A DNA stretch of 34,506 bases from a bacterium (GTDB taxonomy: Bacteria > Fidelibacterota > UBA8477 > JABMPR01): NCBI GenBank assembly GCA_013202895.1, contig JABMPR010000146.1, forward strand, positions 1 through 34,506, read 5' to 3'. Both the position numbers and the translations under genes were made by a program. Within the stretch, counting starts at the first letter, position 1; every line of letters begins with the position of its first letter. Below, piece by piece: positions 6,596 to 31,784 of this stretch. The notes under the pieces are model-generated. The model saw only the letters and a list, made by a program, of their open reading frames with translations. It made no database searches and was not told the origin of the DNA.

Positions 6596-7642
6596 CTAAA
6601 ATTCCAAACTTAAACTAAAGCGGCGCACATCATTGAGGATTCCAAAATCTCCATATGCCATATCCAGTTTAAAACGAAGATTTCGTGCGATTAGCAGGTT
6701 AATCCCACCGCCCAGATTTAATCCTTCTTCAGAGAAGGCTTTGCCATCATCATCATTGTCATCCAGATAAAAAGTTTGACCAGCCCGCAAGAAAACCATA
6801 TCCATAATATTAAACTCGCCACCCATGCTAAGACTTTCTGCATAGTTGTTGGGATGAGCTGCATCGACAGCCAACGTGAGTTTAGCGTGAGGAATTTTTA
6901 ATACATCTGCGGCTACTCCCACCCGAAATATCAAGGGCAGCGACCAGTAATCGGTGTCGAGATGGGCATTTATCTTGGAGTTGTTGCCTTCCTTGACTTC
7001 ATCGATATCAACTTTGATCAAGGTGTCATCACCTTTGAGCTGCATTTTATTGCCAAAATTTGAAACGCTCATTCCAATTTTCACATCTTTGAATTGGGAT
7101 CGGAAGGTGGTTCCCAGATCGACTGCCACAGAACTGGCCTTCATATGCCAGATGCGCTCCTCGATATATTTGATGTTGGCACCGAAAGAGAAGCGGTCGG
7201 TAAAGCTTCTGCCCCAGCCCAGGGTGGCACAAAAATCTGTAGCATCAAATTTTTCACCGGTGCCCTCTGGTTGCGATACTGTACGCACTTTCATCTCAGG
7301 AACAGATAAGCTGGTGATTGCCATGCCCACAGTCCCTATATTTCCCAGAGGAAAGGCTACGGAGACATTGCTGAAATCGATGCCTGCCAACCACTGGGTC
7401 TGGATAAAACTGGCTTCACTTTTATTCATTAGGGCCAATCCACTGGGATTCCAGTAAAGAGAATTGACATCGTCGACAACTGCCACGAAGGCATTACCCA
7501 TGGATGTACCCCGCGCCCCGATGCCTATTTCCAGAAAAGATGCTGCTGTAGTTCCGCGTTTCGAAACTGCTGTCACGTTTGTCAATAATCCACATGCAAG
7601 TATAAATGTGGCAATCCGAAGTATCTTTTGCGAGTTTCTCAT
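6596..7642 (-). CDS. PorV/PorQ-family outer-membrane protein (copy 1)
   Basis: TTAASFLEIGIGARGTSMGNAFVAVVDDVNSLYWNPSGLAL is the typical PorV/PorQ-family N-terminus. C-terminal ...DFGILNDVRRFSLSLEF resembles an OMP beta-signal. GGAGG ribosome-binding site upstream. Confidence 0.9.
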   Translation of the reverse strand: MRNSQKILRIATFILACGLLTNVTAVSKRGTTAASFLEIGIGARGTSMGNAFVAVVDDVNSLYWNPSGLALMNKSEASFIQTQWLAGIDFSNVSVAFPLGNIGTVGMAITSLSVPEMKVRTVSQPEGTGEKFDATDFCATLGWGRSFTDRFSFGANIKYIEERIWHMKASSVAVDLGTTFRSQFKDVKIGMSVSNFGNKMQLKGDDTLIKVDIDEVKEGNNSKINAHLDTDYWSLPLIFRVGVAADVLKIPHAKLTLAVDAAHPNNYAESLSMGGEFNIMDMVFLRAGQTFYLDDNDDDGKAFSEEGLNLGGGINLLIARNLRFKLDMAYGDFGILNDVRRFSLSLEF

Positions 7643-7651
7643 GATTACCTC

Positions 7652-10600
7652 CTACTTGATTACAGCAAATTTGTTGATATGATTCCCAATACCGGGGGCT
7701 TCGATATGATAGAGATATATGCCGTAGGCAATTTCCAAACCATCTCGAGAAAGTAGATTCCAGGATTCTGCCCCATCCCAGATTTCGGAGCTATGTTCAA
7801 TTGTATTAATATATTTTCCACTCAAGGAATAGATCCGGATCGTGCATTCTGGAGGCAAATGGATAAAGTCAATCTTGCGGATTCCCCTACCAGTGTCATA
7901 GAGATGTTGGGGTTCCCAGGATGCTGTAACCACATAAGGATTTGGGACCACTGCAATGTCTTCCAGCAGATTGGCCGAAACGGCGTGATCTATCATGGCA
8001 GCTGAGGTTGTAAAGTTTAAGATATCCAAGGCTGAGAATGGTTTCTTGACCTTGATGATGAACTGATCGCCAGGCTTTGGTGCCCAATCATCCCAGATTC
8101 CTGACATATTTCTGGCAACTGAGTTCTCAGTCCCAAACCAGATAGTTCCGTCAGCCAACTCTTCGATAACCTGAAGTTTATTCGTCCCAAACGCAACGAT
8201 ATCATGTTTTGTCAGGGCCGTGTAGGTCGTATCACCTGAAAAATCGATAATGTTGTAACCCTTACTGGTTGCGATGTGGACTAATCCATTGGAATCTACC
8301 ATCACATCACGGACCTTCTTATCCAGCAGACTATCCTGATTTGAAAAGGTTATGGCACTGTCGACCAAATTATAAATTGCCAATCCTTTCTGCGTTCCTA
8401 TGAACAATTCATTCCCGGATAAATCAAGTGATAAAATCCGGTCACTGGGTAGATCAGAATTGTCTTCATTCACATACCAGAAGCTGCTGTCAGCAGGCTC
8501 ATAGAATTCCAGACCTTCAGATTTTGTACCAACCACTATTTTCCCATTTCCAAGATCCAGAAGATCTATGGATTCATTCTCCAGGATACCAGTGATAATT
8601 GTATCTCCTGAAATCGTGGCGAAGGTATCAGCCTGCCAATCGATGGTTGTGATCTTATTCTCGCCGTATATATAAGCTATAGATGACCGGTGCCAATCCC
8701 AGCGCAGAAGGCCTTTAGCTGAAATTGACCACAGGATGCCCTCTGAATCTTCCAGAACTTTATCAAAACTGACATAGTCCTGTTTATCATTTTCAGCATT
8801 CCCGCTTATGACCATATCGATTGAATAAGAATCCCAGCCCAAGGGTGTGTGCCTGTTGATTCCGTTTACCGAGCCGACTAATAAATCACCACTATTACTG
8901 AAGCTGAAATCCCTGACGTTGTTTGATAGTAATCCCACATCAGTAGTTATTGATGTCCAGGATTGACCATCATATACTCCAATTCCGTCTCCATTTGTCG
9001 CACAGATGATCAGATCGTCCCAGTTGACGATATCCATGATATCACCGGCTTTTGATCTGGTATTGAGTTTCCAGGTCACTCTTCGCTCACCACCAGCCTT
9101 AATGGTGGGATAGAAAATTGAAGCGGGTCTTATCAATGTATCTGAAACTGATGGTGCCAGCATTACGACTGGCAGATCATTGGTTAGGTCATGCATGCTG
9201 AAGGCGAGGCGTTTATTATCAATTGATGTATCGGTGACACTTGAATTGATAGTCAATAGATAATCAAAGGGAACGGCTTTATAATCTACAGTGTTGTATT
9301 TTTCAGCAGTGACCAAAATTTTAAAGTTCAGCCCCTGTGTCATCCAGCCAGTTTCAGCAGAAAGCAAAGCAGTCTCATCATTGGTAACATTCACTCTAAA
9401 GCCCTGGGTTACCAATTCTCGATCTTCACCCGAAAAGTTAGTTCGATCGCTAAGCAATATTTCGCCGGTTGATAAGTTTTCAAGGGCATAGGATGTTGTC
9501 ACCCGGGCAAGTTCGTCAATGTCATTGACGTCAATATTGGGTTCACCCAAATCGGGCTTTGCATTTGCCTGAGTACCGGAAGGATTGAATATGGGATCCC
9601 AGTTATCTTGGTTGGGATCACCGCCAAGATTAAGGGTAGTTTCAGAACAGGGAGAGTCCGGATTACCCGTCTCATATTCATCGTTACAACCATCGATTCC
9701 TAGATCTTCATAAAGCGGTTCCCAGCCATCCCAGACCCCCAAACTTGGAAAGAGGATAAAACTGGTATCGGGGATGTCTACAAAATACTGGAACACCGTC
9801 GAATCCCCGGAAGGTACAGTTTGAGTATCTACAAATGTTGTGTAAAAGATATAGTTTGCATAGATAAATTGGGTGGTGTTCTCAGTGATATTTTGAATAA
9901 CCTGAACGTTGTTAAGATTGATGTGAAGTGTGTCCGAATTGGGGGGAATTTGCATTCCAAGAGTAGGTGACAGTTGCACTAACACACTATCATCGGTCCA
10001 TGTTCGCCAATCCCCATCATTATCCACTCCATCCTCGGACCAGTCGCGAAAAGTTATCTGATACTGGTCATTGTTCCGGATAAACGATGGATCAACAACA
10101 CTTACCTCGAGTGAACCAGTCCCCAGTGTGGTGGCATCGTCAGCTAGAATTTCAGGAGCGATATATGCCATGGCAGGTGCATTAGGCACTACAGAGACAG
10201 TATTGATGGCAAATTTTACAGGGTCACCTGTGGCGTTGATCTCAATTTTTTTAGTACACTCTGAAGGTGTGATCGGTGGTCGCAGATCAACCTCTGATAT
10301 TCCGCGCTCATAAAAATCATAATCAAATCCATAATCATAAGCCACGATAGCATAATAATAGGTTTGTCCATTCTCCACGGTAGAGTCTGTCCAGGAATGG
10401 CGTAAACCGGTATCTGTACCCATGTCCAGGTGGATACCATTCAAACCGTGGGGGTGGGGTCCGGTCAGACCATCGGCCTTGTCAAATTGGGCAATTGGCT
10501 TGTTAAAAGTCTGGTTCCCATAGGTATCTGTAATGTTCCATATTTCATTAAACGCCGGATCGGTAGCACGGTAAATGCGATAACCTTCAAAATCCTTCCC

Positions 10601-12451
10601 ATAGATGGGATCAACACTTAATTCGGCTTTATCATCCCAATAAAGGGTTACCCTGCCATCCCCCGGGACAGCGGACATATGGGGAAGATTTGGCGGCTTG
10701 GCAAAGTTGTAATCACTGTTATAGATTTGCTGCATGGTTTCGGCATTGCGCAAGATGTCCTCATAATCATTTCCGAAAATAAGAGCAACTGCAAATTTAC
10801 GTTCTTCCATTTGAGGCAGAGCAAAGTAAGCCGAACCATACATAAATGTTAAATCAACGGTTTGAAATATGTCGGTAAAGGATCCGGGTGCAAGCTGTGA
10901 CCAGGCTGTTGCATCGTAGGTGAGATTAATACCCGGCCAGGGACCTGCTGTAAAACTTGTCAAACCGATCTGATCCGATTCATCATTATCGGTGTATTCA
11001 AAATTTGGTTCTCCGGCATCAGGAATCCCGTTAGCCTCAGTACCATCAGCATCCGGTCCGATATATTCACCAAAATTTGGACCGATACCATCAGAACCGG
11101 TATCGTCAACATAGGGATTCCAATCGCCATCATTATCAATCCCATCACTCTGGCTCTCGTCGACCATTCCGTCCTCATCATTATCGCGGTCATCGAGTGG
11201 ATTTCCAGGAGATTCGAGATACTTCCATCCAAAATAGGCTGGCACATAACCCTCGCTGCTATTGGTCCAAAGATCATGATCCCATTGATAAACTATATCG
11301 TTCCCCGTGTCAAACCAGGCATCATCATCTCGTTGATCCCCATCATCTCCCACATCGGCATCACCATACATACCGAAAACAAATTTCTCGTAATCCCAGG
11401 AACTGATATTCCGGATCCAATATGTGAAGATGAGGATATCTTCAGCGGCAGGATGAGCCCACTGGTAACCTCTTGCTGCTACATCCACTCCAATCCCCCG
11501 TTTGAAACCATCATAAATGTAATACTCAATTGGTCCGTCAGAGGTGTTTGCACGGTTTGAGAAGGTCTTTAAACGTATTTGATGATCATTAATCAGGGAA
11601 TCAATTTCATACCATTTATCTTCAAGGACTCTGATGGCATCCGGGCGTCTCCCTTCGCGTACATCCAGGGCTGCTGCCCGATTTACATCTCGAACATAAC
11701 CAGAAAACGATGTCACCATATCCGTGAGTAGCGCATATTCATCGGAGTCAGGATCGGCAAATTGGACGATCTCACCAGTATGGATTATATCATCCAGCAA
11801 TACGGGGAAATGTTTAAACTCATCATTATTGAAATCGTCCATGTGGAAATAGCTTTCCTGATCGGCACGATTGTATTGACCGTATTGCCCAGCCCATTTA
11901 TTGTTCCAATCCGCTGGCAAATCTGGCCAACTCTCGGGCCAGGACAAGCTGTCATCGCTCATGGCAATCAGTGAGTCATTGGCATTGGCATAACCGAGCC
12001 GAGGCTCAAATTGCCAGAGATAATCATCAGAGGGGGGTTTTTCAATCGAACTGGATGGCATGCCTTCACTGAGAATGTGTATCGGAACACCGCTGACCGC
12101 ACTCGGCGTTTCTGCAGCCACCAGGGGTGAAAATTCGGCCAAATAAGAATGACCACTCCCAATGGGGTATATTCCACAATCATAACGACCCGGTGAATGA
12201 CCATAATCGGCAATTGCGCCATAATTGGTAAAACGGGTAAGTATCTTGTTGCCATTGTGGACACCAAGCCTGCGATTGCCATGTTGGTTGGCATCGACAC
12301 CGAGGCTACCCATTTTACGAAGATTGTTTGTTTTGGGCTGTTTGTTTTTGACAGTACCAGCTGCTCCTAGCATTAGTGGAGTGGCGAGAAAGCTTATCAG
12401 CAGAATCGAAATGTATGTTTTGATTATATTCATGAATATGCCTTGCCTCAT
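7652..12451 (-). CDS. Giant secreted surface protein (copy 1): conserved N-terminal region, DNDGDW-type repeats, Fn3-like region, Reg_prop-like beta-propeller, PNPY-type C-terminal domain
   Basis: 1599-aa ORF. DNDEDGMVDESQSDGIDNDGDW; LPSDRILSLDLSGNELFIGTQKGLAIYN and LVHIATSKGYNIIDF propeller blades; C-terminus VVPNPYVVTASWEPQHLYDTGRGIRKIDFIHLPPECTIRIYSLSGK...INKFAVIK. Start could be 12451 (ATGA overlap with the TBDR) or 12433 (MNIIKTY). Confidence 0.9.
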   Translation of the reverse strand: MRQGIFMNIIKTYISILLISFLATPLMLGAAGTVKNKQPKTNNLRKMGSLGVDANQHGNRRLGVHNGNKILTRFTNYGAIADYGHSPGRYDCGIYPIGSGHSYLAEFSPLVAAETPSAVSGVPIHILSEGMPSSSIEKPPSDDYLWQFEPRLGYANANDSLIAMSDDSLSWPESWPDLPADWNNKWAGQYGQYNRADQESYFHMDDFNNDEFKHFPVLLDDIIHTGEIVQFADPDSDEYALLTDMVTSFSGYVRDVNRAAALDVREGRRPDAIRVLEDKWYEIDSLINDHQIRLKTFSNRANTSDGPIEYYIYDGFKRGIGVDVAARGYQWAHPAAEDILIFTYWIRNISSWDYEKFVFGMYGDADVGDDGDQRDDDAWFDTGNDIVYQWDHDLWTNSSEGYVPAYFGWKYLESPGNPLDDRDNDEDGMVDESQSDGIDNDGDWNPYVDDTGSDGIGPNFGEYIGPDADGTEANGIPDAGEPNFEYTDNDESDQIGLTSFTAGPWPGINLTYDATAWSQLAPGSFTDIFQTVDLTFMYGSAYFALPQMEERKFAVALIFGNDYEDILRNAETMQQIYNSDYNFAKPPNLPHMSAVPGDGRVTLYWDDKAELSVDPIYGKDFEGYRIYRATDPAFNEIWNITDTYGNQTFNKPIAQFDKADGLTGPHPHGLNGIHLDMGTDTGLRHSWTDSTVENGQTYYYAIVAYDYGFDYDFYERGISEVDLRPPITPSECTKKIEINATGDPVKFAINTVSVVPNAPAMAYIAPEILADDATTLGTGSLEVSVVDPSFIRNNDQYQITFRDWSEDGVDNDGDWRTWTDDSVLVQLSPTLGMQIPPNSDTLHINLNNVQVIQNITENTTQFIYANYIFYTTFVDTQTVPSGDSTVFQYFVDIPDTSFILFPSLGVWDGWEPLYEDLGIDGCNDEYETGNPDSPCSETTLNLGGDPNQDNWDPIFNPSGTQANAKPDLGEPNIDVNDIDELARVTTSYALENLSTGEILLSDRTNFSGEDRELVTQGFRVNVTNDETALLSAETGWMTQGLNFKILVTAEKYNTVDYKAVPFDYLLTINSSVTDTSIDNKRLAFSMHDLTNDLPVVMLAPSVSDTLIRPASIFYPTIKAGGERRVTWKLNTRSKAGDIMDIVNWDDLIICATNGDGIGVYDGQSWTSITTDVGLLSNNVRDFSFSNSGDLLVGSVNGINRHTPLGWDSYSIDMVISGNAENDKQDYVSFDKVLEDSEGILWSISAKGLLRWDWHRSSIAYIYGENKITTIDWQADTFATISGDTIITGILENESIDLLDLGNGKIVVGTKSEGLEFYEPADSSFWYVNEDNSDLPSDRILSLDLSGNELFIGTQKGLAIYNLVDSAITFSNQDSLLDKKVRDVMVDSNGLVHIATSKGYNIIDFSGDTTYTALTKHDIVAFGTNKLQVIEELADGTIWFGTENSVARNMSGIWDDWAPKPGDQFIIKVKKPFSALDILNFTTSAAMIDHAVSANLLEDIAVVPNPYVVTASWEPQHLYDTGRGIRKIDFIHLPPECTIRIYSLSGKYINTIEHSSEIWDGAESWNLLSRDGLEIAYGIYLYHIEAPGIGNHINKFAVIK

Positions 12452-15400
12452 AGTGAGGTTGAAATGCCAATTCGGATTTGTCTGGGGGATGAATAATAGC
12501 CCGGGCGATTCAGATATTCTTCCAAAGTATTATAATCCCAGTTCGGGTCTTCCGATGTATAGGTTGGAATGAGTGAATATCCAGAGCGGCCTGTATCGGA
12601 AAAGACCACAACTTCGTTTCGGATATCAAGGAGGTTATAAACATTGGCTGTGAAACTTATTTCACGACCCATGACTGAGATCGATTTTGTGAGGCGCATG
12701 TCAACATTTACGTTCTGCGGACGACGGCCACTATTTTCGAAGCTTCCCCCTTCAAGATTTGGTGTCTCGGGTGTATAAGGCAATCCAGATCCATACTCTC
12801 CTATAAAACTTAGATTAATTTTGTAGGGTAATCGGAACAGGACGGAGCCATTTAAAGTATGGCGCTGATCCCAATCCAAAGATACCAACTGCTTCTCAGA
12901 ATCCCGATTGTTTTGAGCATCCCAGAAGGCTGAGCGTGGGTCTGATGCATTTCCCTCAGCAATACTGAAGGTATAATCAACGTTGGCGGAAAAACCATTG
13001 GAAAGCCGTTTAGTTAGCGATACCGTAACTCCTTTAACGTTGCCATAATCACGGTTGACATAAACTCCGTAAACTTCATTTGTAAATGTGGACACGATCT
13101 TGGAGCCTAGCAGGTTATTAATATCCTTATAAAATCCAGTTACATCGATACCAATATTTTCACCGAACTGTTGCTGAAAGCCGATCTCGTACTGGACGGT
13201 CTTTTGTGGCTCCAGATCCGCATTTCCCATAGTCGCTGAAGCAACGCTACCGCCAGCAGGTACTTCAAAATCCGGATTTATATACAGGTACGTGTAACTT
13301 GGAATCTGGAAAAAATGACCGTAAGAGAAATGCAGAACACCCTTATCAGTGATGGGATACGCTATGGCCAATCGAGGACTAACCTGGATTTTCCTGGAAG
13401 CTTCTTTAAACCAATATTCCAAACGATCAGCATTGGTCTTGGCATTTTCTGAAACTCCTTCGTCTTCAGAAATAAGACCATCCTCATTCAAATCATGAAA
13501 ACGGTTTATCAATTTGAGAGGACGTAGTGGATTTGGATCTGCCGGATCCGTTAGTGTCGCACCATCAGGTTCAAAAATCTCATATCTCAATCCCGCATTT
13601 ACAATCATGTCGACGACTTCGATTTTGTCCTGGGTATAAACTGCGAATTCGTAAGGGTTACGGACCATCTGGCTATAATTCGGTGTGGATTCACTCACAT
13701 CCGGTGTCAATATTTGCGGATAATTGAAGTCAGGAGGATCATACAAAACTGAAAAATCCCTGCGAAAGATACTGGTATATTTGAATTCTAGCCCCGCTTG
13801 AAGTTGATGCATACTATTGATCTGGTTGGTCATATCAAATTTTAGCAGCTGGCTCCGGGTCATGCGATACAAATGGTACTTTGCGATTCCTCCCAGATTG
13901 AATTTTTCGCCTGTGGATGCATCAAGAATATTGTTGTCATTTTCATAGCCCGCTAAATCTTCAGGATTGTAAGCCGTTGGTTCCGGCATATCGAAGTCTG
14001 AAATTTTGAACATATTAGAAAGAAAATACCTGTTCCAGTCCACGTCATAGAGTTCTTTGTAATAAGAGCGTCCAAAATTGCCGAGAATGGATGCTTTTAT
14101 GGAATAGAAGGCTGTCGAGCTGAGGGTGTGTTGAAGGACCAGCCCAATGTTCATATTATTTCCATACGCCGTTGCCCGACCCTCGGGTGTGTATTTCCAG
14201 GCTAAAGAGTTACTGTTATAGGTGCTTGATTTACCATAAAGGACATTCAGGGAGGCTTTCAAGCTCTGACTGAATCGATGGGTGATCTTACCCTGTAAAT
14301 TTAGGCTGGTCGAGTTATACAGCGGAACGACAGCATTGTCACCCCGATTATTGGTCCATTCACCGTTTCCATCATCATCTATGTAGTACTCTCCACTAAG
14401 CCGACCATCTCCGTTAATATCCTCAACTATATATGGAATATCTATACCGGGATCCCAGGCCCCATTCCGGTTTTGATCAATATATTCGAAATTACCTCCC
14501 AGCCCCTCCAATTCCTCCAGAGTTATAAATTGAACCCGATCGCCGCCATCCCAGATTCCGTTTCCGGCTTCTCTAAAATCGCCAGCGTTGTTGCCTTCCG
14601 TACCGTCTGGATTAAGGTAGGGATCCCAGTTGTCACCATTGGGGTCCATTCCAAGATACAGCGGCGTATTTGAACATCCCCCTTCCCCATTTTCATAGTC
14701 ATCTCCACATCCGTCTGACCCAAGATCAATAAAATCAGAGAATGGTTCTCCATTCTCAACGGGCATGGTGTTGGCCTTATCCCAAAAGAATGAATCCGAT
14801 TTGAATCGCCGAACGCCGTATAGACGACCCGCAACATCTTCATAGCGACCAGAGGTAAAGAAAGAAGTTTTGGATGAGAAGCCTGGAACCGGGCCGCTTA
14901 AACTCCATTGGATATCATGTCTGCCCTGGGGAGTGAATACATCAGAATCCAATCCTAATAGATCAACTTTAGTAATATCAAGATTATCTTTAATCTCCAA
15001 GTCAGCGGGGATCAGACCCAGATAAATTTCTGGATCGGTTGATAAATAGCGACCAAAGCGATAGGTCAATTCACCAGAATATTTGTTTAAGCTACCATCT
15101 TTGGTTATGATATTAATGATCCCTGACATGGCCTGTCCGTATTCAGCATTAAAGGTACCTGAAATCACCTGAAGTTCCTGGATTGCATTATTTTCAATGC
15201 CGACACCCATATTTTGACCATATGAATTGGTTACCGGAATACCGTCAATCAAGTACCCTACTTCAGAGGAACGACCTCCACGGATATGAATTGCACCGCC
15301 GGCATCCACCACCACACCGGCCTGGAGAGACACTGCAGCTTGAAACGACTCCACGGGAAGGGCTTCTAGTTCCTCGGCACTGATATTTGCCTGAGCATGG

Positions 15401-15777
15401 GTGATATCAGCCTGGATCATAGATCGATCTGCGGTCACAGTAACCACATCTCCTTCAATGATGCTCAATGTCATCTTGATGTCCTGGGTGGTGGTCAGGT
15501 CGACCATAACCCTGATACCCTCAATAACCTGCTCGGAATATCCAATCATGGAACATCTCAATTCATATTCACCGGGGGGCGTATTTAGAATCAAATATCT
15601 GCCATTCAGATCGGTAGCTGCTCCTTGTCCAGTTGCAGGTAAAAAGACATTCACACCAATAAGGGGCTCTCCCGTGCTTACATCAGTCACACGGCCGATG
15701 ATCTTGCCAGATGTCCCCGCAAAAAGAAAATTTATCCCAATCGATAGAATTATGAATATCCGACTTAGCTGTTTCAT
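12448..15777 (-). CDS. TonB-dependent receptor with N-terminal CarboxypepD_reg-like domain (copy 1)
   Basis: GKIIGRVTDVSTGEPLIGVNVFLPATGQGAATDLNGRYLILNTPPGEYELRCSMIGY (CPD_reg-like); plug IHIRGGRSSEVGYLIDGIPVTN...ISGTFNAEYGQAMSGIINIITKDG; C-terminal barrel RPGYYSSPRQIRIGISTSL. Confidence 0.93.
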   Translation of the reverse strand: MKQLSRIFIILSIGINFLFAGTSGKIIGRVTDVSTGEPLIGVNVFLPATGQGAATDLNGRYLILNTPPGEYELRCSMIGYSEQVIEGIRVMVDLTTTQDIKMTLSIIEGDVVTVTADRSMIQADITHAQANISAEELEALPVESFQAAVSLQAGVVVDAGGAIHIRGGRSSEVGYLIDGIPVTNSYGQNMGVGIENNAIQELQVISGTFNAEYGQAMSGIINIITKDGSLNKYSGELTYRFGRYLSTDPEIYLGLIPADLEIKDNLDITKVDLLGLDSDVFTPQGRHDIQWSLSGPVPGFSSKTSFFTSGRYEDVAGRLYGVRRFKSDSFFWDKANTMPVENGEPFSDFIDLGSDGCGDDYENGEGGCSNTPLYLGMDPNGDNWDPYLNPDGTEGNNAGDFREAGNGIWDGGDRVQFITLEELEGLGGNFEYIDQNRNGAWDPGIDIPYIVEDINGDGRLSGEYYIDDDGNGEWTNNRGDNAVVPLYNSTSLNLQGKITHRFSQSLKASLNVLYGKSSTYNSNSLAWKYTPEGRATAYGNNMNIGLVLQHTLSSTAFYSIKASILGNFGRSYYKELYDVDWNRYFLSNMFKISDFDMPEPTAYNPEDLAGYENDNNILDASTGEKFNLGGIAKYHLYRMTRSQLLKFDMTNQINSMHQLQAGLEFKYTSIFRRDFSVLYDPPDFNYPQILTPDVSESTPNYSQMVRNPYEFAVYTQDKIEVVDMIVNAGLRYEIFEPDGATLTDPADPNPLRPLKLINRFHDLNEDGLISEDEGVSENAKTNADRLEYWFKEASRKIQVSPRLAIAYPITDKGVLHFSYGHFFQIPSYTYLYINPDFEVPAGGSVASATMGNADLEPQKTVQYEIGFQQQFGENIGIDVTGFYKDINNLLGSKIVSTFTNEVYGVYVNRDYGNVKGVTVSLTKRLSNGFSANVDYTFSIAEGNASDPRSAFWDAQNNRDSEKQLVSLDWDQRHTLNGSVLFRLPYKINLSFIGEYGSGLPYTPETPNLEGGSFENSGRRPQNVNVDMRLTKSISVMGREISFTANVYNLLDIRNEVVVFSDTGRSGYSLIPTYTSEDPNWDYNTLEEYLNRPGYYSSPRQIRIGISTSL
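14340..14735 (-). other. Asp/Asn/Gly-rich, two-Cys insertion in TBDR copy 1 (putative Ca-binding loops in an extracellular loop)
   Basis: DLGSDGCGDDYENGEGGCSNTPLYLGMDPNGDNWDPYLNPDGTEGNNAGDFREAGNG...DQNRNGAWDPG...EDINGDGRLSGEYYIDDDGNGEWTNNRGD. Limits approximate. Confidence 0.7.
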
Positions 15778-15823
15778 ACCAGTCTCACTTCAATTTATGT
15801 TCAATACTCTATTATGCTAGAAA

Positions 15824-15855
15824 GGTACATTCTCGAAGTATGCTGAAAATGTACC
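15824..15855. repeat. Perfect 8-bp inverted repeat, 16-nt loop, between the two triads
   Basis: GGTACATT (15824-15831) and AATGTACC (15848-15855) in the 115-bp gap between PorV copy 2 and TBDR copy 1. Confidence 0.6.
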
Positions 15856-15892
15856 ATTGAAAGTTTGCGATCAATTGATGGTCGTATGATCA

Positions 15893-16942
15893 TCAAAAAT
15901 ATAAACTCAAGTTAAAGCGTTGGACTTCTTTCAATCTCCCAAAATCGCCATAAGCCCAATCAAATCTGAGTCCAGAACCTGACCCGAAGAGTGGGAGATC
16001 AAAGCCAGCACCGAATGTGAAGCTCTCTTCTCGCGCTTCAAGATTTGAGGAAGCCAGACTGGTGTTCGTTTCTACAAATTCAGATTTTAAACCAGCCCTG
16101 AGAAAGTATTTGTCCAGAATATTGAACTCTGCGCCCAGATTAACCGACTCATAATTGTCATTTGGATGGATGGCATCGGCTGCAACAGTCAGCTTGCTAA
16201 CCCCAAGTTCCAAAACATCCATAGCTACACCAACGCGAAAGATTAGAGGTAAATCCCAACTGTCCATGGACAAATCTGCTGGAATTGCAGGATTGTTGCC
16301 CTCCAGGCCAGGTGCAAGGTCAATACGTTCCAGGGCATCCCGTCCGGACATGGTCATGCTGGAGCCATAATTTGAGATACTCATACCCAGCCGCATATCC
16401 TTGAATTGGGTGCGAAACAATGTACCAACATCCAGAGCCATACCACTGGCTGTGCTATGCCAGATATTTTGTTGAATATATTTCAAATTAAACCCAATGG
16501 AAAATCTGTCAGTGAGTGATCGTGCAAGGCTCATTTGCAGAGCCAGGTCACTGGCTGCGAATTCTTCACCGGTCCCATTGGGTTCATATTCGGTTGTCAC
16601 AGGCATATCATCCATAGTCAATGAAGTCAGACTCAGCCCAACAGTTCCAATACCATAGAGTGGAAAAATGACGCCCATATAATTAATGGCAATATCGGCG
16701 ATCCAGTTATTGCGTTGAAACATGATTTCAGCGCCCGGGGCCAGAGCGATCCCGGCAGGATTCCAATACAGACCTGAGGCATCACGGCTCATGGCAACAT
16801 ATGCTTCTCCCATACCTGTTGCCCGACTACCTACCCCAATTTTCAGAAATTGAGCTGCGGTAGTCCCACCTTTATATTGTCCAAAGCTAAGTGAAACTGC
16901 ACAAACGAGGAGGACGATGATCAATAATTTTCTCATGCTCAT
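15893..16942 (-). CDS. PorV/PorQ-family outer-membrane protein (copy 2)
   Basis: GGTTAAQFLKIGVGSRATGMGEAYVAMSRDASGLYWNPAGIALAPG... and C-terminal AYGDFGRLKEVQRFNLSLYF. Clear paralog of 6596-7642. Confidence 0.9.
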   Translation of the reverse strand: MSMRKLLIIVLLVCAVSLSFGQYKGGTTAAQFLKIGVGSRATGMGEAYVAMSRDASGLYWNPAGIALAPGAEIMFQRNNWIADIAINYMGVIFPLYGIGTVGLSLTSLTMDDMPVTTEYEPNGTGEEFAASDLALQMSLARSLTDRFSIGFNLKYIQQNIWHSTASGMALDVGTLFRTQFKDMRLGMSISNYGSSMTMSGRDALERIDLAPGLEGNNPAIPADLSMDSWDLPLIFRVGVAMDVLELGVSKLTVAADAIHPNDNYESVNLGAEFNILDKYFLRAGLKSEFVETNTSLASSNLEAREESFTFGAGFDLPLFGSGSGLRFDWAYGDFGRLKEVQRFNLSLYF

Positions 16943-16947
16943 ACTCC

Positions 16948-19900
16948 CTATTTGATCACGGCAAATTTGCCGATGGTTTCTGCGTTATTGCTATCATAAT
17001 TAGTTTCAACATGGTAGATATAAACGCCATAAGCAACCTCCAATTGATCCAGATTAAGGAGATCCCAGGATTCAGCTCCATCAAATAAAGTTTTATCCGG
17101 ATCTGATGCAGGGCTACTGTGTTCAAGTTTTCTCACCAATTCGCCTGCAATGGTATAGATCCGAATAGTACATTCGCTGGGAAGGTTAATAAAATATATC
17201 TTCCTTTCGCCTCTACCAGATCTCAGATAGGGTTTCTGTTCCCAAATTGCAGAGGCAACATATGGATTGGGAACGACAGAGACCTTATCCAGAGAATTGG
17301 CTTCCCTCGCGGCGTCCACCTTGGCTGCTGAGGTACTGAACTGGTATTTGTCCTGGCTACTGAACTCTTTGCGCGTGTTAATGCGTAGAATATCTCCAGA
17401 TTGCGGTCCAAAGGTATTCCATTCGTATTCTCCAACTCGCTGTTCTAGACCTTCTTCGGTTCCAAAATATCCAATATCATTTGAGAAGGCAATTGCACGA
17501 ATTTTATCTGAACTAAAAATTGTTGAGTCATTCCAGCTTCCCACAAATTTCTCACTGGTCAATCCTGTAGTCAGAGAATCTGCTGCATTTGAAAAATCAA
17601 TGATAGCGTAGCCCGAATGGGTGCCAACATATAATTCATTATTATTTGGTTGAGCCAGGCTGTATGCTCTTCCATTTGGCAGCAGAGAATCTCCATGAAC
17701 AATAAAAGTGTCCCCTACCATGAAGGTGAGTCCAGATTTCCCAGCGAAGACCAAAGCCGAATTCTGCTCTTCCGATAGTTCCGCGATGGCGTAAAAATCA
17801 TCATTGCTGACACCAAGATCATTTTTGGTATAATGATGCCAGATATTGGAGCCATAATCGTAAGATACGATACCCTTTTCTGTGGCCAGCCAAACCATAT
17901 TTCCCTTGATATAAATATCGTTAAGTTTGGTATCATTCAAGGACTCCAAACTCTCAGATAGGCTATCATTAAAAACAACGATGTCGTCATCTGCACTGGT
18001 GAGATAGGTTTGATTTGTTTTGACTCTCACCAGACCCTCATCCAGAGTTGCTATCCACAAATTGCCAAAAACATCTACATCAAAAGCTGTGACGGCACCA
18101 TAACTTTTGGTTTTATCGGGATCTTCAAGCGTTGCTTGACTGTCCTTCTTAAATTCGTCAAATAATGTCTCGAGCCCATGATTCCGATACCATACATCTC
18201 CATCATAAATTGATGGTCCATTCTGGGTTGCGATCCAATAATATCCTTCATAGAAAATGATATCCTTGATTTTATTATCGCTTCGTAAGCCACCACCGGA
18301 TGTGATCTCATCATAAAATATCCAACCCTTGGATTCCTGATTATAAATAGCTAACCCAGATGTTTCGGTACCAATCATCACGCCGTTTTCGGCTGGAAAT
18401 ATGCTCCATATCTCCTTCAGAGGTGTACTAAATGAAAACTGCCAGGTGAACATGATATCTTCCCAATACTCTGTACCTGTTTGTTCCTCATTCAGGTAGA
18501 TGGCGGGTGTAATGTCCTGGGTAACCAGTGATCGAATGCCATCAAAATCATTGCTGGCATATACAGTAAGTAGCTTATCATTGGTAACATCACGGACCTG
18601 AAAAGTAAGTTTTTGTCCATTTGTAGTAAAATGAGTTGTTTCCAGCGAAGTGTCAACAACGGTGGGAAAAAATTCAATCTCATAATCATATGGAACAGGA
18701 GCCCCCTTGTAAGCACCCACATCATAGATGCTAGCGTTCGGTCTCCAGATACAATCTCCCTGAATCCATCCTGATGTTTCATTATTAATGAGGAGTGTAT
18801 CATTGTAAACAAACAACTGCATTCCATTGCTAATTTGGTTGAAATCTTCACCATTCAGACCAAGCTGATTGCTCATGATAATGATTTCATCAGCAGGGTC
18901 GGTTACATCATAGACTGAGAACGATTGGGTGCTACGTGATAATTCTTGAAAGTCACTGAGGTCAATATTTGTTTCACCCATATCTGCACGTCCATTTGCT
19001 TCTGTGCCCTGGGGATTGTGCTGGGGATGCCAATTATCTCCATTAGGATCATCCCCTGGGGATGCCGCCAAGAGCGTATCGGAACAGCTCCCATCACCAT
19101 ATTCGTATTCATCGGAACAACCATCAGATCCAACATCATCATGAACTGAACCATCGGCAGAATAATCCCAGACATCCAGTGTTGGACCAATTGCAATTGT
19201 GGCAGGAAATACCACTACTGTATCCTTATTCAGAGTAGGACCTTCAAGCCAGGTTTTAATTTTCCAGGTTTGTCCATTGTGTACAAATTCTTTGTCAATT
19301 TCAGCTGCCAGAGTCAGGGTGTCGTAAGTGATGCTCTCATAAAAAGTCGAATCACTAGTGGTTGGGACAACCAAGTCGACGTATGGGCTGTTTTCGATTA
19401 ACAAATCAGCGTCAGTGAACGAAAGCCAATCCTCATCATTGTCAACCAGATCCATCCCGGAATCAAGGAAACGAACCTCCAAAATTCGATCATCCGGGAC
19501 CAATGTTGGATCAATGATATCAATCTCGATAGTTCCCGTACCTGGAGTTGAGGTACCATCATCAATATGCAAGACCTCAGGTGGTATATATCCCAGGGCT
19601 GGGGCCTGCGGTGTGACCATGGCTGTGTTTACATCCAGCAAAACTGCACCGGTAAAATCCTCTTGAATCGTTTTGGAGGTTTCTGTGGGTGGAAGAGTAT
19701 CATTAACAGAGCCAGAGTCATAAGCACAAACTGCATAGAAATAACGCAGTCCATTTATCAGGTCTTTATCTACAAAACTATGTACGAGTCCCGTGTTTCT
19801 ACCCATATCAAAGTGAAGACCAGAATTCTGGATCTGTTCGATGGGGTGTGGACCGGAGAGAGTGTTTTTAAGATCAAATTTCGCAATGGGGCTCCAGAGG

Positions 19901-21741
19901 TATGGGCTACCATAAGTATCAGTAATGCTCAAAGATTCATTAAAGCCAAAATCCGTAGCTCGATAAATCGCATAGCCTTCAAAATCATGGCCATAAAGCG
20001 GATCTCTTGACTTCTCTGCCCCATCATCCCAATAGAGTGTTACCTGACCGTCACCAGGAATAGCTGTCAGACGTGGTTTATTGGGTGGTTTTACAAAGCG
20101 ATAGCCGGCATCATAGATCTCCTGCATAATGCCCGCAGTTGCATACAGATCGCGAGTATTATAGGGGTCAGTATGGATACTATCCCCTGTAGAACCTGTA
20201 ATATTAAAGCCGAATAACATTGAAATTGAAAAGCGCCGGACATCTCCAGGTGACATTGAGATAGGACCCGAACCATATAAAAAATAATTATCATGAGTTT
20301 GGGTAAAATCAGCGGGTTGAATCGGCGAGCTGAGTCTATTATAATATACATCAGCAGTTGGGGTTGAAGAGGACCAGGGTCCAACAACAAATCCTGTTAA
20401 ACCGATCTGATCAGCTTCATCCAGATCTTTCTCATCAAAGTTAGGTTCGCCATCATCTGGAAACCCATTTACCTCGCTGCCATCAGGGTCAGGTCGAACA
20501 TATTGTGCATCTTCCGGTCCCACACCATCGGTACCTAGATCATCATTAATCGGTTCACCCCAATCCCATTCGCCATTCAAATTCCAATCTGTAAAGGTTT
20601 GCCAATCGCCGTCATTATCAATACCATCCTGCATGGACTCATCAACCATTCCATCATCATCATTATCGATGCCATCACGAGGCTCCCCGGGGGACTCCAG
20701 GAATTTGTATCCAAAAAATCCGGGGATAGAGTTTCCGCCGAAATAAGAATCTCCACGGGCATCATCATCCCAACCATATACCATATCCAGGAATGTATCA
20801 AAATAGGCATCGTCATCGTTCACATCACCGGCACCACCGATATGTGGATCACCATACATACCAAAATAGACATTGTTCAATGTATCTGTACCGACATTTT
20901 CTACTTCATAGACGAAGAAAATGACATTTTGAGCGCGAGTGGCAGTCCACTGGTAGCCGCGTGCTTGTACCTCCAAACCCAGACCACCTCGGACAGTATC
21001 CACACCTAAAGCAGGATAAAACTCATCTTCATTCAAAGTATCTGTCCAGCTTACCGAAGGTGCTATTTGCTCAGGCCAATAGGTGTTATGATTTTTGATA
21101 TAATAATCATCCATAACATAATAGGATTCCTGATCAGCAGTAGTGACACCCAGGCCATATTCACCCGGCCACATATAGTCACCAAACTCTACATTAAACC
21201 AGCTTAAGGGCCAGGAATCAGGTTTGTTGTCCCGGTTTTCGTCAGGCGTATCGCTCATGGCGATTGATTCAGAAAAGGGATCATGATGCCCATAAATGGG
21301 TTGCCAATTTCCGGAGATAGTGTTATCCGGGGATTCATAGGATACACCTGATTGAATCAGCGCATCCGAAACAAGTTTGATCTCGTCTCCACCGAAATTT
21401 TTTACTTTAGCCCCCGCCAAAACCCCAAATTCATAAGCATAACCTCTGCCAGAGCCAATCGGCCATTCCATAGAAGGTTCTGTACCAGGTTTTCCGATGG
21501 TGCCAAAATTATAAAAAAGCGTCCTAACCCGGTTTCCGTTGTGGATACCACTCCGACGATCGCTTATAGCAGCAGCTTTTGAGAGCATCTGGCGTTTTTC
21601 AAGACTAGCGTAATATTTTAACCAGGCTACTTTGTCATATTTATTTTTTGGTAAACTAATTATGTCATCAACACTTGCATTTAATACAGTTGAGAGGATG
21701 ATGAAGGCCAACAGGATCAATAATTTATTCTGCATGTTCAA
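16948..21741 (-). CDS. Giant secreted surface protein (copy 2), paralog of 7652-12451
   Basis: 1597-aa ORF. RRSGIHNGNRVRTLFYNFGTI...EWPIGSG parallels RRLGVHNGNKILTRFTNYGAI...YPIGSG. DGIDNDDDGMVDESMQDGIDNDGDW; Reg_prop-like blades (LRSDNKIKDIIFYEGYYWIATQNGPSIYD); C-terminus VVPNPYVASAIWEQKPYLRSGRGERKIYFINLPSECTIRIYTIAGELV...IGKFAVIK. GGAAGG ribosome-binding site. Confidence 0.9.
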   Translation of the reverse strand: MNMQNKLLILLAFIILSTVLNASVDDIISLPKNKYDKVAWLKYYASLEKRQMLSKAAAISDRRSGIHNGNRVRTLFYNFGTIGKPGTEPSMEWPIGSGRGYAYEFGVLAGAKVKNFGGDEIKLVSDALIQSGVSYESPDNTISGNWQPIYGHHDPFSESIAMSDTPDENRDNKPDSWPLSWFNVEFGDYMWPGEYGLGVTTADQESYYVMDDYYIKNHNTYWPEQIAPSVSWTDTLNEDEFYPALGVDTVRGGLGLEVQARGYQWTATRAQNVIFFVYEVENVGTDTLNNVYFGMYGDPHIGGAGDVNDDDAYFDTFLDMVYGWDDDARGDSYFGGNSIPGFFGYKFLESPGEPRDGIDNDDDGMVDESMQDGIDNDGDWQTFTDWNLNGEWDWGEPINDDLGTDGVGPEDAQYVRPDPDGSEVNGFPDDGEPNFDEKDLDEADQIGLTGFVVGPWSSSTPTADVYYNRLSSPIQPADFTQTHDNYFLYGSGPISMSPGDVRRFSISMLFGFNITGSTGDSIHTDPYNTRDLYATAGIMQEIYDAGYRFVKPPNKPRLTAIPGDGQVTLYWDDGAEKSRDPLYGHDFEGYAIYRATDFGFNESLSITDTYGSPYLWSPIAKFDLKNTLSGPHPIEQIQNSGLHFDMGRNTGLVHSFVDKDLINGLRYFYAVCAYDSGSVNDTLPPTETSKTIQEDFTGAVLLDVNTAMVTPQAPALGYIPPEVLHIDDGTSTPGTGTIEIDIIDPTLVPDDRILEVRFLDSGMDLVDNDEDWLSFTDADLLIENSPYVDLVVPTTSDSTFYESITYDTLTLAAEIDKEFVHNGQTWKIKTWLEGPTLNKDTVVVFPATIAIGPTLDVWDYSADGSVHDDVGSDGCSDEYEYGDGSCSDTLLAASPGDDPNGDNWHPQHNPQGTEANGRADMGETNIDLSDFQELSRSTQSFSVYDVTDPADEIIIMSNQLGLNGEDFNQISNGMQLFVYNDTLLINNETSGWIQGDCIWRPNASIYDVGAYKGAPVPYDYEIEFFPTVVDTSLETTHFTTNGQKLTFQVRDVTNDKLLTVYASNDFDGIRSLVTQDITPAIYLNEEQTGTEYWEDIMFTWQFSFSTPLKEIWSIFPAENGVMIGTETSGLAIYNQESKGWIFYDEITSGGGLRSDNKIKDIIFYEGYYWIATQNGPSIYDGDVWYRNHGLETLFDEFKKDSQATLEDPDKTKSYGAVTAFDVDVFGNLWIATLDEGLVRVKTNQTYLTSADDDIVVFNDSLSESLESLNDTKLNDIYIKGNMVWLATEKGIVSYDYGSNIWHHYTKNDLGVSNDDFYAIAELSEEQNSALVFAGKSGLTFMVGDTFIVHGDSLLPNGRAYSLAQPNNNELYVGTHSGYAIIDFSNAADSLTTGLTSEKFVGSWNDSTIFSSDKIRAIAFSNDIGYFGTEEGLEQRVGEYEWNTFGPQSGDILRINTRKEFSSQDKYQFSTSAAKVDAAREANSLDKVSVVPNPYVASAIWEQKPYLRSGRGERKIYFINLPSECTIRIYTIAGELVRKLEHSSPASDPDKTLFDGAESWDLLNLDQLEVAYGVYIYHVETNYDSNNAETIGKFAVIK

Positions 21742-21747
21742 ACCTTC

Positions 21748-24700
21748 CTAGAAACTTGTTGAGAGGCCGAGACGGAATTGACGCGGACTGCTGAAGTAAC
21801 TTGGTCTGGTTAACCAATCTGCCAGCGAGTGTCGTCCGGGAATATTTCCATTGTCCGGTGTGTACGTTGGGATAAGTGAATATGTCGCGCGGCCCGTATC
21901 ATTATACACGCTTCTCTCATTTTGTGCATTAAGGGCATTATAGATCTTGGCAAAGACAGTCCAATGCAAACCGGCAAACTCCACATCTCTGTGCATATTT
22001 ATATCAACATTTAAGTAGTCAGGTTTGCGATCGGAATTGGGAGCATCCAGTGCCTCACCTTGATAGACAGGTGAGTAGGGCAAACCGGAACCATATTTGG
22101 TTAAGATGGATAAACCCCATTTCCGCGGTTGCGATAAACTGATATTGAGATTAATTGTATGTGTTTGATCCCAATCCAGGGGGATGACCTGTTTGACAAC
22201 TTCATCCGGTGGATCATTTTCATTTGCATAAAATAGAGCCAGGGGATCTGAAGAATTTCCCTGGGCAACCAGGTAGGTATAATCAGCGGAGGCTGAAAGC
22301 AATCCCGTACGACGTTTGTTTATTGAGAAGGTAATACCACGACTGTCTCCATAGTCACTGTTTGAGTATGCAACATACCTGATAGTGTTATAGCTTTCGT
22401 ACTGCCGTGAACTCAGGAGACCAGAGAAATCTTTATAAAATGCGATGATTTCCACACTAAGATTTGGAGCCAATTCCTGTTGCAATCCAATCTCATAAGT
22501 AACAGTTTTCTGAGGTTTTAAGTTAGCGTTACCCAGAATGGATTCATTGCTTTCAGTGCTGAGCTCCATTTCCGGATTAGCGTATAAATAACTGAAAGTG
22601 GGAATCTGGAAAAAATGCCCATAGCTAAAATGAATAATACCCTTGTCGGTGATGGGATACGCTACACCAAATCTGGGAGAGAATTGATGGACAGTTTCTG
22701 AATTTTCATAGAAGTCATTATAATTTCTCCATGGTTCACCGTTTGCATCCAGAGTATCCAGGATTTCAGCAAACTCAGTAACTTCTGAGGAATACTGAAA
22801 GAAGGTATCAAGCATTGTCGAATCTGCTCCTGGCAGAGTATAAAGCCAGTAGGTAGGATTTTCGGGGTCTCGATAATCGCTGGGCACCAAATAATGGGGA
22901 TCGAAGTAATCATATCGAAATCCTATATTCACGATCATATCGGTCAGCTCGATTTTATCCTGCAAATAAAAATAGGCTTCACGCGGATTCCGGTTAGACA
23001 AGTTTAATTTCGAAACAGCATCGGTGAGCCAATTATCATAGGAATCATTACTAAAGCTGGATTCTGTAGTTTTAATCGTTGGAATCCAATCGAGATTCCT
23101 TTGGACAAAAACTGTATAAGCTTTATAATCCATAAGATGTGTCTTAAATCCTGTACCGACTTTTATCTGGTGAGCATTGTTCATTTGCCAGGTGAGATCC
23201 CCACTGATTAAATAGGTTCGGTTGATTCGTTCGGAATAGCCATGGGAGTGCCCGCCTCCCAAATATTCATTATCTGGTTGCTCTGAAATGCTGGTGGGTA
23301 AAAAATATGCCTTTTTCAAGTCATTGATAACGAATTCAATTTTTGCACCCTGAATAAAATTTGACCAATCCTCATCAGCGAGATAGCTTGCAAAATCTTG
23401 AGCCCATAATTCTTCCCAGTCATTAACAAGCCCAACGGTTACTTCACCCCCTCCCACGTAGAAAGTTTCGCCATCAATTGTAAGGCTATCGGCAGTATAA
23501 ATAGTCATATAACTTTTCAAAATGAGTAGTGAGTCACTGACGGGGCCATAGAAACTACCCATCCCTATGCCCGACCTGTCATCAGCAGCCGCCAGGTTGA
23601 AAAAATCACTCAATGATTGCAGGTCATCAAAAACCAACTCTTTGGTTTCTGAAAGATCTTCCGGATCAACCCTCTGGTAGAAAGTCTTTGCAGTCGTTTG
23701 ATAAAACGAGCCTTTGATGTTATAAAACATGCGCTCATTTAAGGAATGTCTGAGATCCATGATCAGTGAGGTTGAAGTCGACTGATTGGTGGGGCGACCG
23801 TCAGGATTATACTTATAATTGCGGTTGTAACTGACCGATTCAGCAGCATTATGAATCAGGCTGGTATTTATTTTGAGTTTTGGATTAATACGCCAGGTCA
23901 GTTTGAGCATAGCGTTATAACGTGACGAAGTGTTTAGTCGAACAATACTGGAATCCCCACTGGCACCGCTATCCCAGACCTGATTTCCATTAAAATCAAT
24001 ATAGGGTTCACCATCCAGCACCCCGTTGTAATTGGCATCCACAAAGGGATCTCCATTCAATACACCATCAGCATTCTGATCAATAAACTCCCAATCTTCA
24101 GGATCAATATAGCCATTCCCGTTAAAATCCTCATTGTGTGAATAGCGTCCGTCACCATTTACATCCCTGAAAGGTTCACCCAGAGTAAATGATCCATTCC
24201 CGTCAAAATCGAAATATGATTCACTTCCCAGCGCCAGTTTTCCATCTCCATCCAAATCTGTAAATGGTTCGGCAAAATTCAGCAATCCGGCTCTACCCCA
24301 AGGTGAGTCCCGCAGTTCCCTTACTCCATTCGAACTCAAATAATTTACATCATTTGGTGTGTGTTCGCGAACTCCACGGTAGAGTCCACCATAATCATAC
24401 AAACGGCCACTGGCAAAAAAGCTCAATTTATTTCCAAAGCCTGGCACCGGACCAGAGAGGCTGGCTTCCATATTTTTAATATTCATGAGGTCGAATTCAT
24501 CGGCGTGTTCAAAAAAGCGCGTGTCCTCAGTATAATAATCACCCAGATAGGCGCTTAAATTTCCTGAATATTTTGAGCCACCCTCTTTGGTTATAATATT
24601 TATGATACCAGACATGGCCTGCCCGTATTCAGCATTGAAAGTCCCGCTGAGGATTTGCAATTCCTGGACAGCACTATTTTCCAATCCTACAGCCAACCCA

Positions 24701-25287
24701 CCTGAGGAAAGGTTTGTGACTGGAACCCCGTCAATCATGTAGGTGACCTCACTTGAACGGCCACCCCGAATGTGAATCGAACCGTCAGCTTCGGCAACGA
24801 TGCCAGCTTTGGTTGTGATGATGCCCGATAATGACTCAACAGGCATTTCTTTGATGTCTTCTGCACTTATAATGGATCGACCTGAAGTTAGATCTTTTTG
24901 CACCATGGGGCGCTCAGCAACAACGATAACTTCCTCATCTGATTCTAGGACTCGAACATTCATGGCAAAGTCTATTTCAGTAGTCAAATCGCCTCTTACA
25001 GCAACAGCGGTCATGACTATGGTTGTGTATCCGATCATTCCGGCCTTGACAGAAAAATTGCCAATCGGGACATTAATTATGAAATATATACCGTCAGCAT
25101 CTGTAGAAGCTCCCATACCCGAGTTTTCTATGATTACATTGACACCAGGAAGTCCTATTCCGGTTTCTGCGTCAGTCACTCTACCTGATATTTTCCCGGT
25201 AGTCCCGGCATGAAGGCTGCCTATTATGGATCCGAAGATAAATATTTTCAGAAATGATCTATAAGAATTCGCTAACACTGAAGGCAT
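21748..25287 (-). CDS. TonB-dependent receptor with N-terminal CarboxypepD_reg-like domain (copy 2)
   Basis: GKISGRVTDAETGIGLPGVNVIIENSGMGASTDADGIYFIINVPIGNFSVKAGMIGY; plug IHIRGGRSSEVTYMIDGVPVTN...LSGTFNAEYGQAMSGIINIITKEGG; C-terminus RPSYFSSPRQFRLGLSTSF. Confidence 0.93.
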   Translation of the reverse strand: MPSVLANSYRSFLKIFIFGSIIGSLHAGTTGKISGRVTDAETGIGLPGVNVIIENSGMGASTDADGIYFIINVPIGNFSVKAGMIGYTTIVMTAVAVRGDLTTEIDFAMNVRVLESDEEVIVVAERPMVQKDLTSGRSIISAEDIKEMPVESLSGIITTKAGIVAEADGSIHIRGGRSSEVTYMIDGVPVTNLSSGGLAVGLENSAVQELQILSGTFNAEYGQAMSGIINIITKEGGSKYSGNLSAYLGDYYTEDTRFFEHADEFDLMNIKNMEASLSGPVPGFGNKLSFFASGRLYDYGGLYRGVREHTPNDVNYLSSNGVRELRDSPWGRAGLLNFAEPFTDLDGDGKLALGSESYFDFDGNGSFTLGEPFRDVNGDGRYSHNEDFNGNGYIDPEDWEFIDQNADGVLNGDPFVDANYNGVLDGEPYIDFNGNQVWDSGASGDSSIVRLNTSSRYNAMLKLTWRINPKLKINTSLIHNAAESVSYNRNYKYNPDGRPTNQSTSTSLIMDLRHSLNERMFYNIKGSFYQTTAKTFYQRVDPEDLSETKELVFDDLQSLSDFFNLAAADDRSGIGMGSFYGPVSDSLLILKSYMTIYTADSLTIDGETFYVGGGEVTVGLVNDWEELWAQDFASYLADEDWSNFIQGAKIEFVINDLKKAYFLPTSISEQPDNEYLGGGHSHGYSERINRTYLISGDLTWQMNNAHQIKVGTGFKTHLMDYKAYTVFVQRNLDWIPTIKTTESSFSNDSYDNWLTDAVSKLNLSNRNPREAYFYLQDKIELTDMIVNIGFRYDYFDPHYLVPSDYRDPENPTYWLYTLPGADSTMLDTFFQYSSEVTEFAEILDTLDANGEPWRNYNDFYENSETVHQFSPRFGVAYPITDKGIIHFSYGHFFQIPTFSYLYANPEMELSTESNESILGNANLKPQKTVTYEIGLQQELAPNLSVEIIAFYKDFSGLLSSRQYESYNTIRYVAYSNSDYGDSRGITFSINKRRTGLLSASADYTYLVAQGNSSDPLALFYANENDPPDEVVKQVIPLDWDQTHTINLNISLSQPRKWGLSILTKYGSGLPYSPVYQGEALDAPNSDRKPDYLNVDINMHRDVEFAGLHWTVFAKIYNALNAQNERSVYNDTGRATYSLIPTYTPDNGNIPGRHSLADWLTRPSYFSSPRQFRLGLSTSF
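23945..24275 (-). other. Tandem EF-hand/dockerin-like Ca-binding loop array inserted in TBDR copy 2
   Basis: DLDGDGKLALGSESYFDFDGNGSFTLGEPFRDVNGDGRYSHNEDFNGNGYIDPEDWEFIDQNADGVLNGDPFVDANYNGVLDGEPYIDFNGNQVWDSG: about eight D-x-[DN]-x-[DN]-G loops. Limits approximate. Confidence 0.75.
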
Positions 25288-29164: not shown

Positions 29165-29220
29165 ATAAGGTCATCGCAGGGGGACTGAGTATCACTAGCT
29201 TTAACTTGAAAGGATCCCAA

Positions 29221-31020: not shown

Positions 31021-31178
31021 TCTCACGATGGTTCTGCCAGTGATCCTATTAATAATCGGAAATCGTAGGTAGATATTCTTAAGAGAGGATTAATGGTAAA
31101 TCTGGATTATTTTCAAATACTGAAATTTGGAATATGTCCTATGTTCATATGCACATTGCCGAAAATGATTAACATCAA

Positions 31179-31781: not shown

Positions 31782-31784
31782 CTC

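Follow-up and report, generated by a model that had tools for sequence, protein, structure and literature searches.

Tandem TBDR, T9SS-CTD protein and PorV-family barrel triads as a candidate SusD-independent uptake system in Neomarinimicrobiota

The described outer-membrane systems closest to the locus analysed here are SusCD/RagAB, the PorZ-PorQ and PorU-PorV pairs of Porphyromonas gingivalis, SprB-SprF and the related pairs of type-B C-terminal domains (CTDs) with PorP/SprF in Flavobacterium johnsoniae, and BamG-BamH of the Bacteroidota BAM complex. In P. gingivalis, the CTDs of PorZ and PorU are not cleaved (PMC11285876). PorU stays on PorV and PorZ on PorQ, and it has been speculated that cognate PorV-like barrels shield CTDs from cleavage (PMC10202324). 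In pairs of the SprB-SprF type, cargo and barrel are cognate and the cargo is kept on the surface (PMC12618676; PMC9143113). We found no description of an operon composed of a TBDR, a T9SS-CTD protein and a PorV-family barrel in the open-access literature, subscription papers and preprints being outside the scope of the search.

The marine phylum Neomarinimicrobiota (SAR406) is widespread and mostly uncultured, with Fidelibacter multiformis as an isolate (PMC11652737). It is largely without SusD, which leaves its surface capture of polysaccharides unexplained. The window (the whole stretch of 34,506 nucleotides that was analysed) sits in contig C108 of a 3.6 Mb assembly that is 88% complete and has its nearest named relatives in Candidatus Neomarinimicrobiota. 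Six long open reading frames on the minus strand, arranged as two triads, together fill positions 6596-25287. Module A encodes a TBDR (21748..25287; 1179 aa), a giant secreted protein (16948..21741; 1597 aa, with a likelier ATG start two codons inside) and a PorV/PorQ-family outer-membrane barrel (15893..16942; 349 aa), and module B repeats this order with a TBDR (12448..15777; 1109 aa), a giant (7652..12451; 1599 aa) and a barrel (6596..7642; 348 aa). The genes of module A are separated by 6 and 5 bp, and those of module B by a 4-bp overlap and a 9-bp gap, which bears out a preliminary description of two tandem modules, identical in order and strand, whose genes overlap or lie less than 10 bp apart. 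Modules A and B share 35% identity between their giants, ∼40% between their TBDRs and 47% between their barrels, and because identity is only 35-47% across the three genes, the tandem is an old duplication.

In profile searches, the CarboxypepD_reg, plug and barrel domains of both TBDRs all score above cut-off, and TBDR A also has a DxNGDG-rich stretch within its barrel region. On the SusC/RagA model TIGR04056, the two proteins fall well short of the cut-off of 368 bits, scoring 71.1 (A) and 76.7 bits (B). The barrel region of TBDR B contains an Asp-rich cassette with the pattern D.G.DG..D.YE...DPNGDNW (14563..14730, minus strand) that shares 57% identity with residues 868-925 of giant A (18967-19140). 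Its core motif is found, among 75 triads, in seven giants of the window subfamily and in only two TBDRs, and the cassette looks as if it had been copied between partner genes. The third gene of each module meets the PorV/PorQ-family model NF033709 (206 bits for B and 199 bits for A; cut-off 90), and the module A barrel matches PorV (6h3i_F) with a phmmer E of 6e-8. Both barrels score higher on the PorQ model (92 and 89 bits, below its cut-off of 220) than on the PorV equivalog model (69-71 bits), and a domain search gives a Toluene_X match and a likeness to FadL. Gene C195 scores 198 bits on the PorV equivalog model and is probably the housekeeping PorV, separate from the pair in the window. 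The genome as a whole has 28 plug domains and 18 PorV-family matches; one of the latter, in another triad locus (C101:13709-14620), has one in-frame TAG.

The conserved blocks of the giants are an Asp-rich N-terminal region, an Fn3-like block (PGD..VTLYWDD), a variable middle and the CTD, with many Asp-rich, Ca-binding-like motifs along the protein. The fold of the N-terminal domain is unsettled, the structure model reaching a pLDDT of only 59. Its Foldseek likeness to GH94, GH116 and GH149 domains is weak and was not backed by a profile test, which was negative for the one GH94 compared, and does not decide the fold; a SusD-like fold was rejected, as SusD structures were missing from the top Foldseek hits and the PDB gave no significant sequence match. 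The giants had been called propeller proteins in the preliminary description, and a beta-propeller is indeed present, at 17422..18420 in giant A (minus strand; about residues 1108-1440; profile and Foldseek matches) and at 8087..9064 in giant B (minus strand; about residues 1130-1455; Reg_prop match and alignment). However, the propeller is an insert of ∼330 residues before the CTD, most of the protein is not propeller, and most homologs, which are 1030-1250 aa long, lack it altogether, so the name fits only the window subfamily. By profile, the giant A propeller matches the BT3049/BT4663 sensors (E 8e-42 and 6e-40) and PorZ (E 8e-8), and Foldseek returns BT4663 (1.1e-11) and PorZ (5m11; 1.8e-11).

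Profiles built from alignment A1 place a CTD of a PorU/PorZ-like class at 16951..17325 in giant A and at 7655..7999 in giant B (both minus strand). The full-length giants match no sorting-domain model in Pfam or NCBIfam at E 0.01, and A1 CTD members match such models weakly; the best curated models for these members are PorZ (18/24) and PorU (14/24). Searched against the whole PDB, the CTD profile finds only PorZ (5m11) and PorU (6za2) up to E=10. The giant A CTD scores 17.4 bits on the type-A model TIGR04183, below the cut-off of 23, and the PorZ equivalog model gives 19 bits against a cut-off of 260. Neither of the type-B families, CHU_C and TIGR04131, matches giant A at E 0.01, and CHU_C is weakly matched by 8/24 CTD members (E 2.7e-4 or worse). 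In the window giants, the propeller is followed by an Ig-like CTD, as in PorZ, with the CTD part of the structure model at low confidence. The CTD runs for ∼100 residues from its VVPNPY motif to the C-terminus, a length that fits the retained kind, since cleaved CTDs have 67-88 residues and those of PorZ and PorU 96-108 (PMC11285876). By these profile matches, the CTD of the giants is a separate class that current libraries miss. That it is retained on the cognate barrel is inferred from the CTD class only, without cleavage or binding data, and we regard it as distinctly likely.

The own genome has 16 triad-type CTD loci by the A1 profile, compared with 111 ordinary type-A CTDs, and it encodes the SprA translocon (C55:41379-47684, 732 bits). 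In neighbour counts read from match coordinates, a PorV-family gene lies within 5 kb of 13/15 assessable triad CTDs but of only 7/111 type-A CTDs (Fisher p 4e-11), the latter being the chance rate (about 5% expected).

Conservation of gene order was assessed at loci picked on the giant CTD alone. For 42 giants at 40 Neomarinimicrobiota loci, a TBDR is directly upstream on the same strand in 41/41 assessable cases, and a PorV-family gene is downstream in 42/42, as the next gene in 37 and the second next in 5, with median gaps within these triads of 3 and 6 bp. These loci were drawn from the ∼160 best CTD matches listed, and weaker members vary more. In Calditrichia, Rhodothermaceae and Ignavibacteria-type genomes, weak-CTD members included, the complete order TBDR, giant, PorV is kept in 29/39 assessable modules. 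The triad CTD was found in all 61 genomes of a set comprising a 60-genome sample of Neomarinimicrobiota and the own genome (1 to 23 copies each), in 63/118 genomes of the phylum to which L059, a Melioribacteraceae MAG, belongs, and also in Calditrichia and Rhodothermaceae MAGs. The linkage and order of the three families are therefore conserved, as had been predicted for them, and the triad is almost certainly a deeply conserved module.

Departures from the order do occur. In the own genome, both neighbours are canonical for 6/10 giants; in C55, the order is TBDR, PorV, one further gene, giant, and the CTD at C26:30241 has no PorV nearby. Giant and PorV are not always neighbours, because at L039, L148, L150 and L151 the TBDR and PorV adjoin, with the giant several genes off on the same strand. 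L147 and L152 have a tandem of two short giants, of about 600 and 735 aa, which suggests modules with two surface subunits. At L097, L119, L121, L124 and L127, giant and PorV are separated by a further gene of ∼460 aa. Two of these five genes are annotated, with matches to SurA N-terminal or PPIC rotamase domains, and the product is possibly a dedicated periplasmic chaperone.

Across 75 complete triads, the distance matrices of the TBDR, the giant minus its CTD, the CTD and PorV correlate at r 0.83-0.92, the highest value being that of TBDR and giant (0.92) and the overall value for CTD and PorV being 0.83. Shuffling partners inside single genomes, so that species relatedness is preserved, gave a maximum r of 0.68, and 0/2000 trials per pair were as high as observed. 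Within genomes, PorV correlates at 0.86 both with the CTD and with the N-terminal part of the giant. The three families thus co-diverge, as the preliminary description had proposed, and the triad genes have stayed together through many duplications. Co-divergence alone does not prove contact, and tight linkage by itself would make it likely. Its use as a guide to the parts that touch was given up, the correlations being alike for all pairs. The nearest relatives of the module A parts are all in A-type triads (L051, L052, L111), and the module B parts are nearest to the B-type triad of L051 and then to the triad of L112. Only an A-type triad is present in L052 and L053 and only a B-type triad in L112, with apparently the same downstream genes following. 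Judged from these relatives, the tandem goes back a long way, and the three genes of each triad travel together. Since the A and B lineages are old and separate, it is plausible that the two modules serve different substrates, although there are no substrate data and the substrates of the window modules can only be inferred.

No SusD gene (PF07980) was found in the window, as first reported, or in the rest of the own assembly, and SusD is absent from 49/61 phylum genomes, this one included. Downstream of homologous triads are GH16 (11/100), ABC permeases (14/100), sugar-binding proteins (8/100), GH3 (5/100), CBM20 (6/72) and GH94 (3/72), as well as GH9, amylase and many ordinary T9SS-sorted proteins. 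As a control, 68 genes on the opposite strand at these loci were compared, and the 25 families listed for them include none of these glycan and ABC families, although single unlisted hits remain possible. If one hidden control hit is assumed per family, permeases give a Fisher p of 0.005 and GH16 one of 0.03, values to be read with care since the loci are related. L104 has GH9, GH16 and GH3 at its triad locus, and among the triad loci of the own genome, C76 has two GH16 genes and C351 a GH94 and a glucoamylase-like protein. The polysaccharide-utilisation context seen in many homologous triads is not recognisable in the window operon.

Four co-oriented genes follow module B on the minus strand: one of unknown function (5391..6542; 383 aa) with the same post-triad place in relatives L052 and L053, one with an ordinary type-A T9SS sorting domain (3250..5412; 720 aa; TIGR04183 41 bits) kept in the same two relatives, another unknown (2057..3226; 389 aa) kept in relatives, and a PD40 (WD40-like) protein (955..2025; 356 aa), where relatives have a similar-sized gene. 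A domain search recognised no glycan enzyme or other enzyme family among them. The 720-aa protein matches FlgD-like CTDs only, plus weakly an Ig/Fn-type domain; by eye, an N-terminal HFHNGTD-type stretch recalls M23/LytM peptidases, without a database match. On the other side lies a divergent FG-GAP protein with an ordinary type-A T9SS sorting domain (25564..28389, plus strand), kept beside the module in relatives, and adjoining it are a Na/Pi cotransporter with a PhoU domain and a CYTH-domain gene (29206-32249).

The reading that we consider reasonably probable is that each triad forms a SusD-independent uptake complex, in which a T9SS-delivered partner of the TBDR is held by its own PorV/PorQ paralog. 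The TBDR would import a solute, which at most of the homologous loci is very probably an oligosaccharide. The giant would be exported by Sec, fold in the periplasm and pass through the SprA translocon by means of its CTD, and with a CTD of the non-cleaved PorU/PorZ kind, it would stay bound to the barrel encoded downstream of it rather than be released. This barrel may park the N-terminal and Fn3-like domains of the giant over or beside the TBDR, where they would capture or hand over the substrate, the role that SusD has for SusC, and the two tandem modules would make two uptake complexes of different specificity. The earlier proposal that each giant is the dedicated surface partner of its TBDR, with its own PorV, gains support from linkage, co-divergence, the absence of SusD, the PorU/PorZ-like CTD and the carbohydrate operons. 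We hold the uptake role of the giant to be about as probable as the complex itself; contact with the TBDR has not been shown, and this contact, the binding of substrate and its identity remain inferences.

It is also conceivable that the giant is ordinary type-A T9SS cargo served by the housekeeping PorV, and that the barrel next to it does something else, for instance transport of the FadL type. Profile matches to PorU/PorZ and, weakly, to TIGR04183 mark the CTD as Ig-like, the genome has a separate PorV candidate, and the Toluene_X match of PorV-family barrels does point to FadL, yet the 111 ordinary CTDs lie near PorV genes at the chance rate whereas triad CTDs almost always do, and CTD and PorV distances track each other both overall and within genomes, which renders this explanation improbable. 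The constant TBDR directly upstream in 41/41 Neomarinimicrobiota modules, the r of 0.92 and the sugar transport and hydrolase genes trailing many modules weigh in turn against the giant being a surface adhesin, matrix or sensing protein, with a TBDR that takes part in signalling or imports on its own account and is linked for co-regulation only. This possibility draws on the resemblance of the propeller to the BT4663/BT3049 sensor propellers, on the Asp-rich, Ca-binding-like motifs in which the giants are rich and on the FG-GAP and T9SS surface proteins that flank the window modules, and we regard it as quite doubtful.

A further explanation retains the link between giant and barrel but makes the PorV paralog a transient shuttle that passes the giant to another final anchor, for example LPS via the PorU sortase. 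PorV shuttles type-A cargo (PMC5562754), and the genome has an ordinary T9SS with its 111 type-A CTDs. However, the triad CTD class resembles the two CTDs that are not cleaved, and a recycled shuttle needs no dedicated one-to-one barrel, as in the argument made for PorV versus SprF (PMC12618676). We consider this very unlikely.

The SusD-independent complex would, in its general form, be a second mode of TonB nutrient capture without SusD across several phyla of the Bacteroidota superphylum, with a T9SS passenger permanently on a PorV/PorQ paralog, a claim towards which we lean only slightly.

If true, the triad would be the main capture machine of Neomarinimicrobiota, in which each genome has about 1 to 23 triad-type CTDs, and would account for the large number of PorV-family genes in these genomes. 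The published speculation on CTD protection (PMC10202324) would become directly testable, and the triads would add a further class of CTD-barrel pairing, a genome-wide generalisation of PorZ/PorQ in which PorV-family barrels evolved into dedicated anchors. Annotators would also gain a marker for polysaccharide loci without SusD, which searches based on SusCD overlook.

Set beside the known systems, the triad resembles SusCD/RagAB in its TBDR with CarboxypepD_reg, its co-oriented surface-partner gene and the polysaccharide-utilisation-like operons of many homologs. In contrast to SusCD/RagAB, its TBDR is not SusC by curated model, there is no SusD-family partner, the partner present bears a T9SS CTD and the third gene encodes a PorV-family barrel. 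With PorZ-PorQ and PorU-PorV, it has in common a CTD closest to those of PorZ and PorU, a PorV/PorQ-family barrel and, in the window subfamily, a propeller followed by a CTD, as in PorZ. Triads, however, provide numerous paralogous pairs within one genome, and every pair comes with a TBDR; no PorZ likeness was found in the N-terminal region of the giants, and the proteins are not orthologs by curated models. SprB-SprF and the type-B CTD and PorP/SprF pairs likewise have a private barrel gene directly after the cargo gene and cognate pairing, but the triad barrel belongs to the PorV family and not to PorP/SprF, its CTD is PorU/PorZ-like and not type B, and a TBDR is added. In BamG-BamH, a FadL-fold barrel similarly forms an extracellular pillar on which a surface protein is docked beside a larger barrel (PMC12611786), although that surface protein is a different, lipid-anchored one and the large barrel is BamA. 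In its simplest mechanism, the triad would be SusCD-like in purpose and PorZ-PorQ-like or SprB-SprF-like in assembly, but it fails the membership tests of each of these three.
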